Positions 19,022-51,032 of a stretch of 54,071 nt of DNA are shown here, piece after piece (the stretch's first letter is position 1; each line of letters begins with the position of its first letter). The position numbers and the translations under genes were made by a program. Source of the DNA: a virus; IMG/VR virus record IMGVR_UViG_3300042387_000502, positions 1 to 54,071 of that record, one strand, 5' to 3'. The notes beneath the pieces were generated by a model. The model did no database searches. It worked only from the letters and a program-made list of their open reading frames with translations, and was not told where the DNA came from.

Positions 19022-19555
19022 ATGGAAATTGAATTATCAGATCATTTTGATCGCATGAATAAAGTTGTTGCCGAACTTTTAAAGGGCAATAATCCGACCC
19101 AGATTGCCTCTCTGACGGGCTATAAGCGGTCAGACGTAGTAGAACTTATAGACGAGTGGAAAACTGTCGTATACAACGATACAAGCTCTAAGGAACGGGC
19201 CAAAGAGGCTATCTCAGGAGCTGATCAACATTACTCTATGTTAATTAAAGAGGCATGGAAAACAGTGGAAGATGCAGATCAGGCAGGTCAATTAAATGTT
19301 AAGGCTAACGCTCTTAAATTGATTTCAGATATTGAAACAAAAAGAATTACTATGCTTAAAGAAGTTGGTTTATTAGATAATGCCGAAATGGCAGCACAAA
19401 TTGCAGAAACAGAGCACAAGCAAGACATTCTGGTTAAAATATTAAAAGAGGTTACAGCCTCTTGTCCAAAATGTAAAATGGATGTAGCAAGAAGGCTATC
19501 ACAAATTACAGGAATTGTAGAACCAGTTGTAATAAATTCTGAAGAGGTAGTCTAA
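19022..19555 (+). CDS. Candidate small terminase subunit
   Basis: 177 residues. N-terminal HTH (NPTQIASLTGYKRSDVVELI), then long helices for oligomerisation and a CPKC near the C-terminus. HTH plus coiled helices one gene before TerL is the usual TerS layout. It would recognise phage DNA for packaging. The call is by architecture and position. Confidence 0.65.
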   Translation: MEIELSDHFDRMNKVVAELLKGNNPTQIASLTGYKRSDVVELIDEWKTVVYNDTSSKERAKEAISGADQHYSMLIKEAWKTVEDADQAGQLNVKANALKLISDIETKRITMLKEVGLLDNAEMAAQIAETEHKQDILVKILKEVTASCPKCKMDVARRLSQITGIVEPVVINSEEVV

Positions 19556-20136
19556 TGTTTGATAAAACCAATTTTGAAAAACTTGGAGAAGACATATACG
19601 TATATCATAATTTTGCAACAGATAATGAATGCGATAGGATTATACATTACTCTAATTTAATAGAAGAAGATCTCTGGCACGACAATTTTAGTTTCTATAC
19701 ATCAGATATTTCTATAACTACAATTTCTGAAATAAAAAAAAGATTAAGCTATCTTTTAAATGATAATATTTTTTTAAATGAAAATAATGGATTAATAAGA
19801 ATGCAAAAAGGGCAGTCGTGGGGCCTGCATTCAGATAATCACGACTTTTTACAATTAAGAGAAAAGGCGTCTTTATACAAAGAAGGTGATGTTTTTCATT
19901 TTGAAAAAAATAATTTGTATGGATTAATAATATATTTTAATGATTTTGAAGGTGGTGAAGTTTATTATCCAAATCAAAATATAGAATATAAACCTAAAAA
20001 AGGAGATTTGCTTATACACAGCGCAGAAGAACATTGTTTGCATGGGGTAAAAGAAGTAAAAAGTAAAGTGAGGTACTCACATTCAAGCAATCTGTATAAT
20101 TATATAAAAGTTCCAAGGAAATACAATGTCATTTAA
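19555..20136 (+). CDS. 2-oxoglutarate/Fe(II) oxygenase (prolyl-hydroxylase-like)
   Basis: 193 residues. Facial triad H92-S-D94 and H163, with R173 for 2-oxoglutarate. The core YFNDFEGGEVYYP and KPKKGDLLIHSA are P4H-type strands. Shares one base with the terminase small subunit and overlaps TerL by 11 bases, so it is expressed with packaging proteins; a virion-protein substrate is a reasonable guess. Confidence 0.8.
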   Translation: MFDKTNFEKLGEDIYVYHNFATDNECDRIIHYSNLIEEDLWHDNFSFYTSDISITTISEIKKRLSYLLNDNIFLNENNGLIRMQKGQSWGLHSDNHDFLQLREKASLYKEGDVFHFEKNNLYGLIIYFNDFEGGEVYYPNQNIEYKPKKGDLLIHSAEEHCLHGVKEVKSKVRYSHSSNLYNYIKVPRKYNVI

Positions 20137-21925
20137 CTTTTCCGATATAATAGATATTTTAGATAATGAAGAGTTTGAAGAAAGACCAGTAGACCTACAA
20201 ACTTTTGTTACAAACCCTAATTACTTAGCCTTACCACCACTTTCAAATTATCAATATACACTAATTGAAAAGTCATCTCAAATATATAAAGAGTCTACAT
20301 TAATTAAATTATTTGGAGAAGAAGAAGGCTCTAGAATATTTAAGCAAACAGCCAACGAAGTAATTGCTCAACTTGGCAAAGGTTCTGGCAAAGACTACTG
20401 CTCAACAATTGCAACAGCTTATATTGTGTATTTGTTATTATGCCTGAAGGACCCAGCGTCATATTATGGGAAACCACCAGGAGATGCAATCGATATTTTA
20501 AATATTGCTATTAACGCACAACAAGCAAACAATGTTTTCTTTAAAGGTTTTAAGACACGTATTGAAAAGTCTCCATGGTTTACTGGAAAATACACAGACA
20601 AAGCTTCTGAAATGAAATTTGATAAATCTATTACAGTTCATTCTGGTCACTCTGAGCGTGAAGCTTGGGAAGGGTATAACGTTATTGTTGTTATCCTTGA
20701 TGAGATTTCAGGTTTTGCTACAGAGAATACAACTGGACATGATCAAGCTAAAACTGCAGATGCTATATACGAAATGTACAGAGCATCAGTAGACTCACGT
20801 TTCCCAGATTTTGGCAAAGTAATATTACTTTCTTTTCCAAGATTTAAAAATGATCCAATACAAAAATTTTACGAATCTGTTATTGCTGAAAAAGAAACTA
20901 TAGTAAGAAGCCATAATTTTAAAATGGATCTCGATCTCCCAGACGGAACTGAAGGTAATGAGTTTGTAGTTGAATGGGAAGAAGACCATATTCTTTCTTA
21001 TTCTATTCCAAAAGTATATGCATTAAAACGTCCGACCTGGGAAATTAATCCAACTAGAAGCATTGATGATTTTAAAGTAGCATTTTATAAAAACTCTATG
21101 GATGCATTAGGAAGGTTTGCTTGCATGCCGTCAGACGCAGTAGATGCATTTTTTAAATCAAGAGAAAAAATAGAAACAGCATTTAATAACACAGCAGTTG
21201 CTATTGATCAATTTGGAAGATTTGAAAATTGGTTCGCACCAGACCCAGATAAAGAATATTTTATACACGTAGACCTTGCACAAAAGCATGACCATTGTGC
21301 AGTTTCTTTAGCACATGTTCAAAAATGGGTTAATGTAAAAGTAAGTGATACTTATACACAGCCAGCACCAATAGTAGAAGTAGATGCAGTAAGATTTTGG
21401 ACCCCAACACCAGATAAGTCTGTAGACTTTACAGAAGTAAAAGATTACATATTGTCTTTAAGAACAAAAGGATTTAAAATAAGACTATGTACTTTTGACA
21501 GATGGAATTCTCACGATATGATGCAACAACTAAAACAATACGGCATCAATACAGAAATTCTATCTGTCGCTAAAAAACACTACGACGATATGGCGATGAT
21601 AGTTTTAGAAGAAAGACTAAAAGGGCCACACATTCCTTTACTTATAGATGAATTATTGCAATTAAAAATTATGAGAGATAAGGTAGACCACCCAAGAAAA
21701 GGATCAAAAGACTTGGCAGATGCTGTCTGTGGATCAATATTTAATGCAATACGTGGAACTAGATTTGATTCAAATGAAGAAATTAACATACACACATACG
21801 AATCAATGTCTTATGATAATGATTTTAGTAAGGATAACCCAGACGTATCTTCAGTAAATATGATAAGGGCACCAAGAATGCCAAATGAACTTAAAGACGC
21901 AATGGATAGGATGATGGTAATATGA
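20126..21925 (+). CDS. terL: Terminase large subunit
   Basis: 599 residues. ATPase: Walker A GKGSGKD (84-90), Walker B VVILDEIS (~189-196). Nuclease: FIHVDLAQKHDH, CTFDRWN, and KDLADAVCG carrying the acidic residues of the RNase H fold. Powers DNA packaging and cuts concatemers. Full length. Confidence 0.9.
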   Translation: MSFNFSDIIDILDNEEFEERPVDLQTFVTNPNYLALPPLSNYQYTLIEKSSQIYKESTLIKLFGEEEGSRIFKQTANEVIAQLGKGSGKDYCSTIATAYIVYLLLCLKDPASYYGKPPGDAIDILNIAINAQQANNVFFKGFKTRIEKSPWFTGKYTDKASEMKFDKSITVHSGHSEREAWEGYNVIVVILDEISGFATENTTGHDQAKTADAIYEMYRASVDSRFPDFGKVILLSFPRFKNDPIQKFYESVIAEKETIVRSHNFKMDLDLPDGTEGNEFVVEWEEDHILSYSIPKVYALKRPTWEINPTRSIDDFKVAFYKNSMDALGRFACMPSDAVDAFFKSREKIETAFNNTAVAIDQFGRFENWFAPDPDKEYFIHVDLAQKHDHCAVSLAHVQKWVNVKVSDTYTQPAPIVEVDAVRFWTPTPDKSVDFTEVKDYILSLRTKGFKIRLCTFDRWNSHDMMQQLKQYGINTEILSVAKKHYDDMAMIVLEERLKGPHIPLLIDELLQLKIMRDKVDHPRKGSKDLADAVCGSIFNAIRGTRFDSNEEINIHTYESMSYDNDFSKDNPDVSSVNMIRAPRMPNELKDAMDRMMVI

Positions 21926-22167
21926 GTATATATCAAGAAAAAGCTAAAGAGTGTAAATGTTGTGGAAAACATGTTCCTCTACCAACAGTTTTAAAAGAGT
22001 ATAATGGTCTTATGATTTGTCCAACAACATTTTCAAATATAATAGAGTATACAAGAATATGGAATGCAATTGGATCAAGACCACCTGGAAATGTTAGAAA
22101 GCATTTTTCTGAGTATGTCCAGCAAATTGTAGAAGCAAATATTTCTGGGGGTAAAAATGCTATCTAA
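21922..22167 (+). CDS. Small Cys-containing protein
   Basis: 81 residues; C11-x-C13-C14 (CKCCGKHV) and a later Cys (MICP) may bind zinc. ATGA overlap with terL and 11-base overlap with the next oxygenase. Unknown. Confidence 0.6.
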   Translation: MSIYQEKAKECKCCGKHVPLPTVLKEYNGLMICPTTFSNIIEYTRIWNAIGSRPPGNVRKHFSEYVQQIVEANISGGKNAI

Positions 22168-22801
22168 ATTTATTAAAAATGGATATAGTGCTAGATATGT
22201 AATAGATGAAGTAATATTAGTAGATGATTTTTTAAAAAAAGAAGAAATAGAAACTTTGCTTAAAGTTGCTGAATCTACTGATGATGATGGGTGGAGAGTA
22301 GAGTATTTAGCAAATTTAAAAAGATTTTGTTTAACAAAATTTGGTAGAGATGATGTAGATAATTTAGTTAAAGAGGGCAAATTTGAAGTAACAGATAATT
22401 GGGCAGATAAAATAATAAGTACAAACTCTTTAGATGAAAGACATGTAATTACTCAAAGACTTAAAGATATTTTAAAAGATTTTCCAGAGCTAGATATCCC
22501 AGGATTTGGAAGTATTCAAAGACAATATGATGGGGTTCCATTAAAAGAACATACAGATGTACACACAGATCCATCAATACAATATGCATCTATTATTTAT
22601 TTAAATGATAACTATAATGGTGGAGAATTTTATTTTGTGCACAAAGAATTTCAAATAAAGCCAAAACCTGGTTCACTTTTAATATTTCCTGGAACAGAAG
22701 AATTTAGGCATGGAGTAAAAGCACCAGAGGCTGGCCCAATGAGATATGTTTTGCCTGGATTTATTCATACAAAAGATTTTTATAAGCATAATAAATTTTA
22801 A
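22157..22801 (+). CDS. 2-oxoglutarate/Fe(II) oxygenase
   Basis: 214 residues. Two overlapping HxD candidates (H132-T-D134, H136-T-D138), distal H185, 2-oxoglutarate-binding R196. YLNDNYNGGEFYF and KPKPGSLLIFPG are the conserved double-stranded beta-helix segments. Second of eight oxygenase-like genes. Ends just before the tRNA promoter. Confidence 0.82.
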   Translation: MLSKFIKNGYSARYVIDEVILVDDFLKKEEIETLLKVAESTDDDGWRVEYLANLKRFCLTKFGRDDVDNLVKEGKFEVTDNWADKIISTNSLDERHVITQRLKDILKDFPELDIPGFGSIQRQYDGVPLKEHTDVHTDPSIQYASIIYLNDNYNGGEFYFVHKEFQIKPKPGSLLIFPGTEEFRHGVKAPEAGPMRYVLPGFIHTKDFYKHNKF

Positions 22802-22847: not shown

Positions 22848-22921
22848 GCAACAGTAGCTTAGTTGGTTAAAGCCCCGAACTCATAATTCGGTAATCGTAG
22901 GTTCAAGTCCTACCTGTTGCA
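22848..22921 (+). tRNA. tRNA-Met (anticodon CAT)
   Basis: 74 bases. Acceptor GCAACAG / CTGTTGC, D arm with AGTTGGTTAA, anticodon stem CCGAA / TTCGG around loop CTCATAA (CAT at 22882-22884), T arm GGTTCAAGTCC. No encoded CCA. CAT could also be a lysidine-modified Ile tRNA. It is followed directly by a ribosome binding site and gene, suggesting a joint transcript. Confidence 0.92.
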
Positions 22922-22933
22922 CAAGGAGATGCT

Positions 22934-23295: not shown

Positions 23296-23712
23296 ATGGT
23301 AACAACATTCCCTATGGATCTTTTTAATGATCCATTTTTTATTGGTTTTGGGAGAAACCTAGAACGAATCACATCTAATAAAGATCTATTTGCAACTAAC
23401 TATCCGCCACATAATTTAATTAAAATTGATGAGGATAATTTTAGAATTGAACTTGCAGTCGCAGGATTTTCTAAACAAGATATTTCAATAGATCTATTAC
23501 AAAATGAACTTAGGGTATTCGGAGATAAAGAAGAAACTGAAAATAATTCTTTTGTACATAAAGGAATTGCATCACGTAATTTTCAAAAATTTTTTGCTCT
23601 TGGAGAATACATTGAAGTTGTTGAGGCTGAAATGAAAGATGGCCTACTTGTGATTTCTTTAAAGAGAAATACTCCAGAAGCCCAAAAGCCAAAGACAATC
23701 AAAATAAAATAA
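23296..23712 (+). CDS. Hsp20-family small heat-shock protein
   Basis: 138 residues with an alpha-crystallin domain: NFRIELAVAGFSKQDISIDL, ELRVFGDKEE, SRNFQKFFALGEYIEV, then MKDGLLVISL and a C-terminal IKIK anchor. ATP-independent holdase; in phages thought to assist capsid assembly. Strong GGAGG ribosome binding site, possibly masked by the leader. Confidence 0.88.
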   Translation: MVTTFPMDLFNDPFFIGFGRNLERITSNKDLFATNYPPHNLIKIDEDNFRIELAVAGFSKQDISIDLLQNELRVFGDKEETENNSFVHKGIASRNFQKFFALGEYIEVVEAEMKDGLLVISLKRNTPEAQKPKTIKIK

Positions 23713-23714
23713 GA

Positions 23715-23815
23715 TATAATAGAAGTCTGCACCCCGTCACTGGGGAGTCGCAGGCTGTTCGGGTTGCTACCCGAAGGATACACCTGAGCATGTGTATAAA
23801 CTGCTCTCTAACATT
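23715..23815 (+). ncRNA. Structured leader RNA, riboswitch- or attenuator-like candidate
   Basis: TATAAT at 23715-23720 is followed by three clear hairpins: TCTGC..CCCC/GGGG..GCAGG (23726-23754), a perfect 7-bp TTCGGGT/ACCCGAA (23758-23775) and ATACAC/GTGTAT (23778-23797). GAGCA (23786-23790) can instead pair with TGCTC (23802-23806), breaking the third hairpin, and CAGG (23751-23754) could pair with its loop CCTG. It ends just before AAGGA and the ATG of 23824. I do not recognise a known class. Confidence 0.55.
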
Positions 23816-23823
23816 AAGGAACT

Positions 23824-24603
23824 ATGTTTAACTTTCATTGGCTTGCTAGAGAAAACTATTCTATAAAAAATTTAATTGAATTGTCTAATGAACTAGAATC
23901 AGTGGGATACTATTCTGTTTTATTAACATATAACTCAAAAACACCAGATTCTTTTATTAAAATTCCACATATTATTAATAAAACTCATAAACTTAAATAT
24001 ATGATTGCAATAAGGCCACACGCAATAAGTCCAGAGTATTTAAAAATGCAGTGTGATGGATTTTATGAAATACAGCCAAATAGATTAATTATAAATTTTG
24101 TAGCTGGAGATTTACTTCAAGATGAAGATGTGCCAATTCCAACTGTAGATAGAATTAATAGTTTTATGGATTTAGAATCAAGAAGAAATCATTTAAATAT
24201 TTTTTTAGAAATATTTAAAAGCTTGCCAGGTGAAAAACCAGAAATAGCGGTTAGCGGATCTTCTGACCAGATACTAAATTCAGCCGAGCAACACTCAGAT
24301 ATTTTAATAACTGAGCTATCTCAATATATAAACAAAGGACTATCAAGTAAAAATATAAACAAAACGGTAGTTAAAATTAATGTATGCATTAGAGATACTC
24401 AAAAAGAAATAGATGAAATTATTAAAAATAAAACAATTCAAGGTCTAGACCCCGAATATTCTGGAACTAAAGATAAAGTTATGTCAAGTATATTAAAACT
24501 GCAAAATATTGGAATAAAGGATATAATGGTATCTGCAGGATTTGGAGATTTACAAAAATATAGAATACATGATTTGGTAAAAACAATAAAGGAGATAAAG
24601 TAA
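23824..24603 (+). CDS. Luciferase-like (LLM-class) flavin monooxygenase homologue
   Basis: 259 residues in a TIM-barrel layout: FNFHWLARENYSIKNLIELS, then ELESVGYYSVLL, KYMIAIRPHAISPEYLKMQC, and later EIAVSGSSDQ and DIMVSAG. This is the bacterial luciferase superfamily (F420 or FMN dependent). Substrate unknown; rare in phages. Stop overlaps the next ATG by one base. Confidence 0.65.
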   Translation: MFNFHWLARENYSIKNLIELSNELESVGYYSVLLTYNSKTPDSFIKIPHIINKTHKLKYMIAIRPHAISPEYLKMQCDGFYEIQPNRLIINFVAGDLLQDEDVPIPTVDRINSFMDLESRRNHLNIFLEIFKSLPGEKPEIAVSGSSDQILNSAEQHSDILITELSQYINKGLSSKNINKTVVKINVCIRDTQKEIDEIIKNKTIQGLDPEYSGTKDKVMSSILKLQNIGIKDIMVSAGFGDLQKYRIHDLVKTIKEIK

Positions 24604-25249: not shown

Positions 25250-25261
25250 TTGGAGATCCAA

Positions 25262-27868
25262 TTGCATAGAAAGTTAAAACTATTTTTAGCTAGCCTTTTT
25301 GTAACAGGTTGGCTATTTTTTATTGGTCCAAGTTATGCGTGGGCTACAGATAATGGCGGACAAGAACAAGTTGTTGTAAGTCCTGCACAACAAGCAGTTA
25401 ATTCAGCCCTCGCAACAGCCACCACAGAAGTTCAACAGGCTATTGCAGCCACGGACACTGCCACTGCCACAATAGTAACAGCGGTTGCTGAAAGAGTAGA
25501 AGCTCAAGAAGCGGTAAACATAGTAACAGCCGCAGTAACAGTAGCGCAATCAAATGTAGCTTTAGTAGACACCGCCACTGCTACAGTTAATAACATAAAT
25601 TTAGCCGTCACACCAATAGATCAAAGTTCGCAGATAATTGCAGATGCAAAAAATACAATTACAACAGCACAAACTTCTATAAATAATATTGACACATCAA
25701 CTGCACAGGTACAAATATCTGAAGCCGTAGTTGCAAAAACAGAAGCAGTTACAGCACAAGCAACTGCACAAACAGAATTAACACAGGCAAACCTTGCTAT
25801 TGATGCTGCTCAAACAGCAGTCAATAATTTACAAGCCACTATTGGAACTAGCACAAATGTTTTGGCTGGAGTAGATGATGCTGGTGTTCAAATGAATCTT
25901 CCGTTCGGAATGCAAATGGGTGGAACTGTTTACAACAATGTATTCGTTGGATCAAATGCAACAATAACATTTGGAACAAATGAAGGATGGGTTTATCATA
26001 CAACTCCAGGAGCACCTTCAGTATCTATTGCTGGATGGGACTGGACTACTTGGAGTACAGGAACTGGAATTACATATTCAACTACTGGAACAAGTTTAGA
26101 TATTGCTTGGGATTTAAGACCATTTCCACAACAAGATGCTTCTACTCAAATGGTTCAGGTAAGATTTAATGCTGATGTAAATCCAAATGATGGTGCATGG
26201 ATGGCAAATGTAACTGCTAATGGACCAATACCAGATCAAGCGAGATTTAATGTTAGAGAAACAACTAACGGTGCACTCATTCCAATTACAGATACTAATG
26301 TTGGAGCAGGTTTTGCTGGACAAATAAGTCAAGGTGCAGCATTTACTCCGTATGTAGACCCAAATACAGAAACAGTTCAGGCAGCGGTTGACTCAGCAAA
26401 TGCAACTATTGCACAATTAAACTCAAGCCTTACTCCAGTAGTTGCTCAAAATACTACAAACACATCTAATATAAATGCTATTAATACAACATCTTTAACT
26501 AATACCGTAAACTCAGCGGTATCAACAAAGACTTCTTTACAGTCAACATTAAACACTAAAGCAGGACAACTTGTCTCTGCTATTAATAACAACATTCCAA
26601 CACCTGCCCCAATAATATCTCAAGCAGTAGTAGATGGATCAACAGTAACTGTTATGCCAGAATTACCATCTGGATATACACCAAACACATGGTTCTATCA
26701 AGTAGTAACTGAAGATGAAAATGCAGAAAATCCATATGAAGGACAAACATTAAACACAGACGGAGCGCCAGAATTTATTCAATTAACTGGATTAACAGAA
26801 GGTGCTTCATATACAATTAGAATTGCAAACTGGTCTGGTCCAGTAAGTCAGTATGTTGAAACTATTATTACAATTCCACAAGAAGAAATAATTAGTGTGC
26901 CGTCACAGCCATCTTACATAACACCAATAGAGCCAATCATTGATGAACCTGTTATACAAGAACCAATCATTGATGAACCTATTATAGAAGAACCAATTAT
27001 TGATGAACCTGTTATAGAAGAACCAATTATTGATGAACCTGTTATAGAAGAACCTATTATTGAGGAACCTATTATTGAAGAGCCATCTAACGAAGAAATT
27101 TCTGTTAGCGAAGAAGCAGAAATTGTATTTGAAGAAAGCGAAGCCTCTATTGAAGACATATCCGAAAGCGGTGCAAACCTTTCCGTAGAAGATGTTCAAG
27201 AAATTATTACTGATTTAATTAGCGATAGCGATTTAGATGCATTTGAAGTTTCTGCAGTGCTAGAAGCAATTGCTGAAGGCGGAGAGGTGTCTGCAGAAAT
27301 CGCTGCTGAAGTATCTGAATCTTTATCGGAGGGTGGGCTGACAGAAGCAGAAGCAGAATTTATTACAGAAATGCTTTCTGCAGATGGAGAAATAACAACT
27401 GCAGAAGTTGTTAATTTATCTGAAGCCTTATCTGAAGACGGTAAATTTACTTTAGTAGAAAAAGATTTAGTTGCAGATGTACTGGTAACTTCAGCAGAAG
27501 GAGCACCTGTAACTGCTGCCAACATAGAAGCAGCGGGACTTGAATATCGTGATCTTCCCCCAACAATTCCAGTAGAGGTAAGAGAAGACGCTAATGGTAA
27601 TCCAGTAGTTATTCAAGCAGAAGTTGCTTCCGCATTACTTGTTTTAGAAAGCCCAGCAGCAATAGCAAATGCAATTGCTACTTGTTTTAATCCAGAAGAG
27701 GCAATTGAAGGTTTAACAGAAGAGCAAAAATGTGAATTAGGCAAAGCACTACTTAACATGGGTGCCGATATGTCTATTCCAGAACGTGAAAAAGCAGAAG
27801 ATATCGTAGTAGTAACAATAATAGCTGGCCAGATAGTTCTTGGCACAGCATATAGAAGGAAGGTATAA
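25262..27868 (+). CDS. Very large secreted/surface protein with repeat region
   Basis: 868 residues from TTG 25262, set by GGAGA 5 bases upstream. Signal peptide (basic start, hydrophobic core ~8-24, then AWA). Residues ~30-200 are an Ala/Thr-rich coiled coil, ~210-370 a beta-sandwich-like domain (GGTVYNNVFVGSNATITFGT), then another coiled coil, an Fn3-like piece, five 10-residue EPIIDEPVIE repeats, an acidic helical domain and a hydrophobic C-terminal segment (VVVTIIAGQIVLGTAYRRKV) that could anchor it. Phage adhesin or host-surface modifying protein; inference. Confidence 0.75.
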   Translation: MHRKLKLFLASLFVTGWLFFIGPSYAWATDNGGQEQVVVSPAQQAVNSALATATTEVQQAIAATDTATATIVTAVAERVEAQEAVNIVTAAVTVAQSNVALVDTATATVNNINLAVTPIDQSSQIIADAKNTITTAQTSINNIDTSTAQVQISEAVVAKTEAVTAQATAQTELTQANLAIDAAQTAVNNLQATIGTSTNVLAGVDDAGVQMNLPFGMQMGGTVYNNVFVGSNATITFGTNEGWVYHTTPGAPSVSIAGWDWTTWSTGTGITYSTTGTSLDIAWDLRPFPQQDASTQMVQVRFNADVNPNDGAWMANVTANGPIPDQARFNVRETTNGALIPITDTNVGAGFAGQISQGAAFTPYVDPNTETVQAAVDSANATIAQLNSSLTPVVAQNTTNTSNINAINTTSLTNTVNSAVSTKTSLQSTLNTKAGQLVSAINNNIPTPAPIISQAVVDGSTVTVMPELPSGYTPNTWFYQVVTEDENAENPYEGQTLNTDGAPEFIQLTGLTEGASYTIRIANWSGPVSQYVETIITIPQEEIISVPSQPSYITPIEPIIDEPVIQEPIIDEPIIEEPIIDEPVIEEPIIDEPVIEEPIIEEPIIEEPSNEEISVSEEAEIVFEESEASIEDISESGANLSVEDVQEIITDLISDSDLDAFEVSAVLEAIAEGGEVSAEIAAEVSESLSEGGLTEAEAEFITEMLSADGEITTAEVVNLSEALSEDGKFTLVEKDLVADVLVTSAEGAPVTAANIEAAGLEYRDLPPTIPVEVREDANGNPVVIQAEVASALLVLESPAAIANAIATCFNPEEAIEGLTEEQKCELGKALLNMGADMSIPEREKAEDIVVVTIIAGQIVLGTAYRRKV
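26930..27079 (+). repeat. Five tandem 30-base repeats encoding EPIIDEPVIE
   Basis: Units start at 26930, 26960, 26990, 27020 and 27050, each of the form GA(G/A)CC(A/T)AT.ATTGATGAACCT..., in frame in the large secreted protein. They encode a Pro/Glu stalk. Near-identity of units 2-4 suggests recent expansion. Confidence 0.85.
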
Positions 27869-50925: not shown

Positions 50926-50958
50926 AAAAGAAAAATGGCCTTTACGTCTGGGGGCTTG

Positions 50959-51032
50959 CGATCCATAACGGACTTGAACCGTCGACCTCTACCGTGACAG
51001 GGTAGCGCTCTAACCAACTGAGCTAATGGACC
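50959..51032 (-). tRNA. tRNA-Asp (anticodon GTC)
   Basis: 74 bases. Acceptor GGTCCAT / ATGGATC (one G-U), D arm AGCTCAGTTGGTTAGAG, anticodon stem CTACC / GGTAG, loop CTGTCAC, T arm GGTTCAAGTCC. Discriminator G, no encoded CCA. Probably read through from 51064. Confidence 0.93.

Follow-up and report, generated by a model that had tools for sequence, protein, structure and literature searches.

Organisation of the locus

The window, the whole 54,071-nucleotide stretch of viral DNA that was analysed (IMG/VR record IMGVR_UViG_3300042387_000502), carries a structured leader between an Hsp20 gene and a luciferase-like gene. The features of the locus are the following.

23296..23712, + strand: Hsp20 (alpha-crystallin) gene, the upstream neighbour (Pfam PF00011, 1.4e-18)
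23710-23712, + strand: stop codon TAA of the Hsp20 gene
23692..23720, + strand: putative promoter AAGACA-17-TATAAT, -10 box at 23715-23720 (10/12 match to consensus)
23725..23755, + strand: leader module A, GTCTGC-A-CCCC-GTCACT-GGGG-AGTC-GCAGGC
23758..23775, + strand: leader module B, a 7-bp hairpin, TTCGGGT-TGCT-ACCCGAA
23780..23806, + strand: core H-type pseudoknot (covariation in both helices and compensation test in IMG/VR)
23780-23783/23792-23795, + strand: pseudoknot stem 1, ACAC/GUGU
23784-23785, + strand: pseudoknot loop CT
23786-23790/23802-23806, + strand: pseudoknot stem 2, GAGCA/UGCUC
23791, + strand: pseudoknot spacer T
23796-23801, + strand: pseudoknot linker ATAAAC
23807..23815, + strand: G-poor 9-nt single-stranded tail 3' of the pseudoknot (base composition, 293 dereplicated copies)
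23816..23820, + strand: Shine-Dalgarno (SD) sequence AAGGA for the luciferase-like gene, not part of the pseudoknot (read from the sequence)
23824..24603, + strand: luciferase-like (LLM) gene, downstream (Pfam PF00296, E 1.9e-5)

The LLM gene starts with the ATG at 23824, and its PF00296 match of 24.6 bits lies under the curated cut-off of 27.9. All three hairpins described before this gene in the initial annotation are present, at 23725-23755, 23758-23775 and 23780-23795. Module A is made of 6 bp and 4 bp flanking an asymmetric bulge; module B contains the perfect 7-bp stem TTCGGGT/ACCCGAA that had been pointed out, closed by the loop TGCT. The third hairpin, ACAC/GTGT, spans 23780-23795, and its loop pairs with bases further 3'.

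The fold energy of 23715-23830 corresponds to a z of -3.0 relative to shuffles; over the likely transcript, 23727-23823, z is -1.6, which is not convincing. By itself, fold energy is moderate evidence here, and minimum-free-energy folding was abandoned as a guide to structure: it misses the true pseudoknot. As for the promoter annotated directly before the leader, the TATAAT at 23715-23720 stands, and a -10 box precedes module A in 81/82 distinct related leaders; the match of AAGACA-17-TATAAT alone is no better than in shuffles. Transcription is expected to start near 23726-23728, which would place module A at the 5' end of the transcript.

Elsewhere, the window contains tRNA-Met and tRNA-Asp genes (22848-22922 and 50958-51032). 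Two 2OG-Fe(II) oxygenase-like genes (19555-20136 and 22157-22801) flank a 599-aa ORF (20126-21925) that has a terminase-like look and no Pfam match. An 872-aa protein encoded at 25250-27868, also devoid of a Pfam match, carries E-E-P-I-I-D-E-P repeats and a possible signal sequence.

A pseudoknot with compensatory changes in both helices

The core of the leader is an element of about 27 bases with the consensus NNNC-CU-RRRYA-U-GNNN-NUAAAC-URYYY, whose unpaired CU and UAAAC are conserved. The family was found through a sensitive search of annotated phages, as matches of 28-40 nt centred on CCTGAGCATGTGTATAAACTGCTC in phages of the Cobavirinae, where they separate the gene for class II ribonucleotide reductase from that for glutaredoxin. 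A search pattern with the loop and the second strand fixed and stem 1 left free matches no fewer than 120 viral contigs, as well as 44 of 11.3 million bacterial or archaeal contigs. Each of the three inner pairs of stem 1 is matched in 126/126 distinct viral copies. For the two variable pairs, 59-60 matched copies are expected under independence against 126/126 observed, and A-U, U-A, C-G and G-C are all in use.

Variants of stem 2 that keep the pairing were found by a geometry-only scan of the collected loci. Over all of IMG/VR, the original GAGCA/TGCTC is present at no fewer than 120 loci, the compensated AAGCA/TGCTT likewise at 120 or more, and the compensated GGACA/TGTCC at 112; the mismatched hybrid GAGCA/TGTCC occurs at 1 locus. 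Stem 1 is equally well paired across the three stem-2 sets (417 distinct copies), and TAGCA/TGCTA, CAGCA/TGCTG, GGGCA/TGCCC, GAACA/TGTTC and more are found among the same copies. In an 85-sequence alignment, 97.1% of cells are paired and both sides have changed in 148 cells. The covariation score is 0.566, compared with 0.185 in shuffles and at most 0.15 in slid controls; no shuffle reached the paired share, the double-change count or the covariation score.

These compensatory changes prove that both helices of the pseudoknot are real. Covariation among relatives, on which the initial annotation had made its proposal depend, is thus strong, and GAGCA/TGCTC, listed there as an alternative pairing, is accepted as a genuine helix because of this comparative evidence and not because of fold energy or promoter match. 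The other pairing put forward, a CAGG/CCTG pseudoknot, is not conserved: most relatives have CAGA at that place. An outer closing stem around the core, prompted by four roseophage copies, proved not to be general, its fifth pair being below expectation.

The view that the leader belongs to no known class also holds. None of the Rfam 15 families matches the window region at gathering or at E<=10, and in 20 homologous loci, examined at E<=1, none overlaps it. Sub-threshold matches to Plastid-ycf2 (RF04354) in two contigs (L028 2356-2430; L174 1534-1611), on the strand opposite a tRNA, are probably artefacts of that model.

Modular leaders in related phages

The relatives of the window share one leader order: Hsp20 stop codon, TATAAT, variable hairpin modules, pseudoknot and SD. 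The genes that follow vary and include those of a zinc ribbon, a nuclease and luciferase-like proteins, among others. We aligned 39 related leaders with the window as reference. The pseudoknot helices are paired in 100% of cells, stem 1 with compensated pairs. In module A, the outer helix is paired in 94% and the inner helix in 97% of cells, with few compensated changes; in module B the share is 87%, one pair having 17 compensated sequences. The module A pattern is found in at least 120 viral contigs and has no Rfam family match, while module B is replaced by other modules in some relatives. In the window, the promoter immediately after the Hsp20 gene would give rise to a structured 5' leader with the pseudoknot as its final module.

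The modular 5' leaders (window 23725-23775; L028, L035, L071, L089, L183-L293) have in common a conserved -10 box, module A CTGCACCCCNNTCANNGGGGAGTCGCAG, swappable modules such as GTCGGGGGAGACAGCGAC and others, and the pseudoknot.

Distribution of the element

A covariance model of the element (R1) finds a single copy in the window, at 46.2 bits (E 6e-13), and no further one at E<0.01. Its matches extend to phages of Synechococcus, Nostoc, Staphylococcus, Lactobacillus, Mycobacterium, Arthrobacter, Paracoccus, roseobacters and Moorella. One thermophilic and one crAss-like phage also have matches, as do a phage of E. coli (E 2.4e-8) and one of Vibrio (E 2.3e-11); T4 and lambda have none. Altogether, the element occurs in hundreds of phage contigs, with a maximum of 8 copies per contig. 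In Synechococcus phage S-EIVl there are 7 matches at E<0.001, including a partial one (E 9.5e-5); Paracoccus phage ParMal1 and Celeribacter phage P12053L are further cultured carriers. The E. coli and Vibrio phage matches speak against a strict correlation with RNase J hosts.

The crAss-like phage cr7_1 (L177) carries tandem copies near 2459 and 2501, the first with a differing, compensated stem 2, TAGCA/TGCTA. Four contigs binned as bacteria, Saccharibacteria or similar (L132, L145, L168, L170), have copies beside small conserved genes and are perhaps phages or plasmids of Patescibacteria.

Placement relative to genes

Copies are intergenic and mostly on the coding strand. Their neighbours are unrelated: Hsp20, class II ribonucleotide reductase, glutaredoxin, PhoH, nuclease, zinc ribbon, portal/scaffold and SSB genes, and tRNAs. 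For 34-38 copies, the gene on the upstream side is Hsp20. A site between the portal/minor-head and scaffold-capsid genes recurs for the element in staphylococcal, Lactobacillus and thermophilic phages, and in S-EIVl copies precede the SSB gene along with other large ones.

Recurrence is greater for genes upstream of the element than for those downstream of it. Where two copies have related upstream genes, their downstream genes are related too in 24% of pairs; where the downstream genes are related, the upstream ones are related as well in 56%. Hsp20 and ribonucleotide reductase dominate this comparison, which is uncorrected for phylogeny. A cyanophage group reverses the trend.

The distance to the upstream stop codon is sharply bounded. 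Stem 1 begins exactly 5 nt past the stop in 51/293 dereplicated copies and nearer in 8/293; beyond 5 nt the distribution falls off as a tail. On the other side, positions +1 to +9 after the element contain 3-11% G, compared with 16-22% further on; the same 9 nt are enriched in U, with neither A nor C depleted. This G-poor stretch of about 9 nt is close in length to the RNA-DNA hybrid inside RNA polymerase.

In Molivia, NMeng1, L026, L078, L100 and L139, a tRNA begins 3-35 nt 3' of the element; in L026 and L078 it is a tRNA-Asp, directly after the pseudoknot. In two contigs (L109, L170), the next long ORF in the ORF listing is convergent, and the element can therefore belong only to the upstream transcript; ORF calls on contigs are approximate, and greedy gene-calling is too noisy for convergent/divergent statistics.

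A candidate decay barrier at cistron boundaries

The reading we favour, tentatively and with somewhat less than even confidence, is a cis-acting boundary pseudoknot of mRNA that would fold beside translating ribosomes and act as a roadblock to exonucleolytic decay. Placed behind a stop codon, at the head of a leader, or both, the compact knot would remain folded next to the ribosomes and halt exonucleases, so that neighbouring phage cistrons would be preserved or separated; upon excision of a downstream tRNA, it would be left near the 3' end of the mRNA. From the 5-nt cliff it would appear that the knot has to keep its fold close to the terminating ribosome, as if held just outside it. Several other observations are consistent with such a barrier: the abundance of matched stem-2 pairings and near absence of the broken one, the diversity of neighbour genes, the number of copies per contig, the lack of a fixed reading frame in the stop spacing, the unstructured tail that comes next, the tRNAs shortly downstream, the recurrent portal-scaffold site, and the position after a promoter and structured modules in the window's group. 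Against it, one direction of protection cannot cover both the 5'-leader and 3'-end positions, and in some phages it is the downstream gene, not the upstream one, that is constant.

The tail is also what a leaky transcription terminator or pause site of the pseudoknot type might use, with stem 2 abutting a weak stretch of RNA-DNA-hybrid length; we regard this as rather unlikely. TTTT follows within 10 nt of 75/417 copies (18%), compared with 9-15 (2-4%) at control positions. Such U-runs fit termination better than a barrier to decay, and they are associated with a downstream promoter (p 0.006) and with a next gene that lies further away (p 0.013). However, most copies, the window's included, have no U-run, A and C are not depleted, and at 4-5 bp the stems are shorter than would be expected of a terminator. 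Moreover, in the window's group the element separates the promoter from the gene, and complete termination at this point would leave the gene silent. On balance, a decay roadblock would best explain the leader, intercistronic, pre-tRNA and convergent positions, and a leaky terminator would better explain the U-enriched tail.

An operator through which a phage or host RNA-binding protein would repress or enhance translation, on the pattern of the T4 gene 32 leader, is improbable. T4 gp32 binds a leader pseudoknot that has an unstructured region with the ribosome-binding site (RBS) behind it (PMC535899, PMC3014915), a layout that resembles ours, and one copy, in S-EIVl, lies directly upstream of an annotated SSB gene. 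No other copy was seen in such a place, neighbour genes differ, the hosts come from distant phyla, several copies lack an RBS and are followed by a tRNA, by a promoter or by a convergent ORF, and the model finds no match in the T4 gene 32 leader.

The sharp 5-nt spacing is near the 6-9 nt of recoding pseudoknots (PMC3835772) and would also suit an action on ribosomes at the stop codon, be it insulation from the next gene, control of reinitiation or readthrough. We give this little probability: in copies like the window's, the stop is about 70 nt away and a promoter intervenes. A readthrough or frameshift pseudoknot in particular was rejected, as the stop-to-element distances spread over the three frames (27/23/16 modulo 3) without preference.

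The initial annotation had proposed a riboswitch or attenuator, with flavins among the candidate ligands. The leader itself is confirmed; neither a riboswitch or attenuator of the luciferase-like gene nor a flavin sensor is supported, and a riboswitch sensing a cofactor appears very improbable. Small conserved H-type pseudoknots such as preQ1-I and SAM-II can bind metabolites, and the conserved unpaired CU and UAAAC would suit a binding site. However, the neighbour genes have no common pathway, and a placement at boundaries, in several copies and independent of gene, argues against such a sensor. An expression platform was not found either: the fold contains neither the SD (23816-23820) nor a terminator, and neither SD sequestration nor a conserved terminator/antiterminator switch is seen in the 39 leaders or across contexts.

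A small self-cleaving ribozyme or an RNase recognition site separating cistrons would account for a compact, highly conserved, intercistronic element of phages, but is most unlikely, with no Rfam match, known ribozymes included, and flanks that, the G-poor tail apart, lack conserved cleavage-site nucleotides.

We see about an even chance that the element is an undescribed class of pseudoknots, spread over phages of many phyla, that punctuates transcripts, as decay barrier or terminator, regardless of gene and host. The H-type fold is known, while the family, its spread and its placement appear new: searches by sequence strings and by topic found no prior description in Rfam 15 or in the main texts of the open-access literature. 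A few narrow patterns sufficed to collect hundreds of loci with strong compensatory support, yet the family is absent from Rfam. Such commonness suggests that phage gene expression uses a general device that has so far escaped notice, and as cultured phages carry the element, it is directly testable.

Comparison with known systems

REP/BIME and other intercistronic stabilisers are gene-independent and protect 3' ends, as simple hairpins on bacterial chromosomes. Our element is likewise intercistronic and indifferent to gene, but it is a pseudoknot with conserved loops and occurs mainly in phages.

The luteovirus-type frameshift pseudoknots (e.g. BWYV) and the MuLV readthrough pseudoknot have a 2-nt loop 1, an extruded U and an A-rich loop 3. 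The element shares these loop features, together with a position a few nucleotides from the decoding site of the ribosome. In contrast to them, it follows the stop codon, has no fixed frame and no slippery site that we could see, and the sequences are unrelated.

STAXI (RF01728) and manA/wcaG are structured RNAs of phages and plasmids; manA has been noted near ibpA chaperone genes, and STAXI is tandemly repeated with UUCG loops (PMC2864571). Like our element, they are pseudoknots or cyanophage-borne structured RNAs near diverse genes; unlike them, it has no Rfam match.

A kinship with the T4 gene 32 operator was considered and dropped, as neither the T4 record nor the gene 32 leader matches the model. 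The likeness to the T4/RB69 gene 32 leader lies in the design: in both, a small H-type pseudoknot of a phage mRNA precedes an unstructured stretch poor in G, with the Shine-Dalgarno sequence beyond it. Whereas that operator serves gene 32 only, the element described here serves many genes in many phages.
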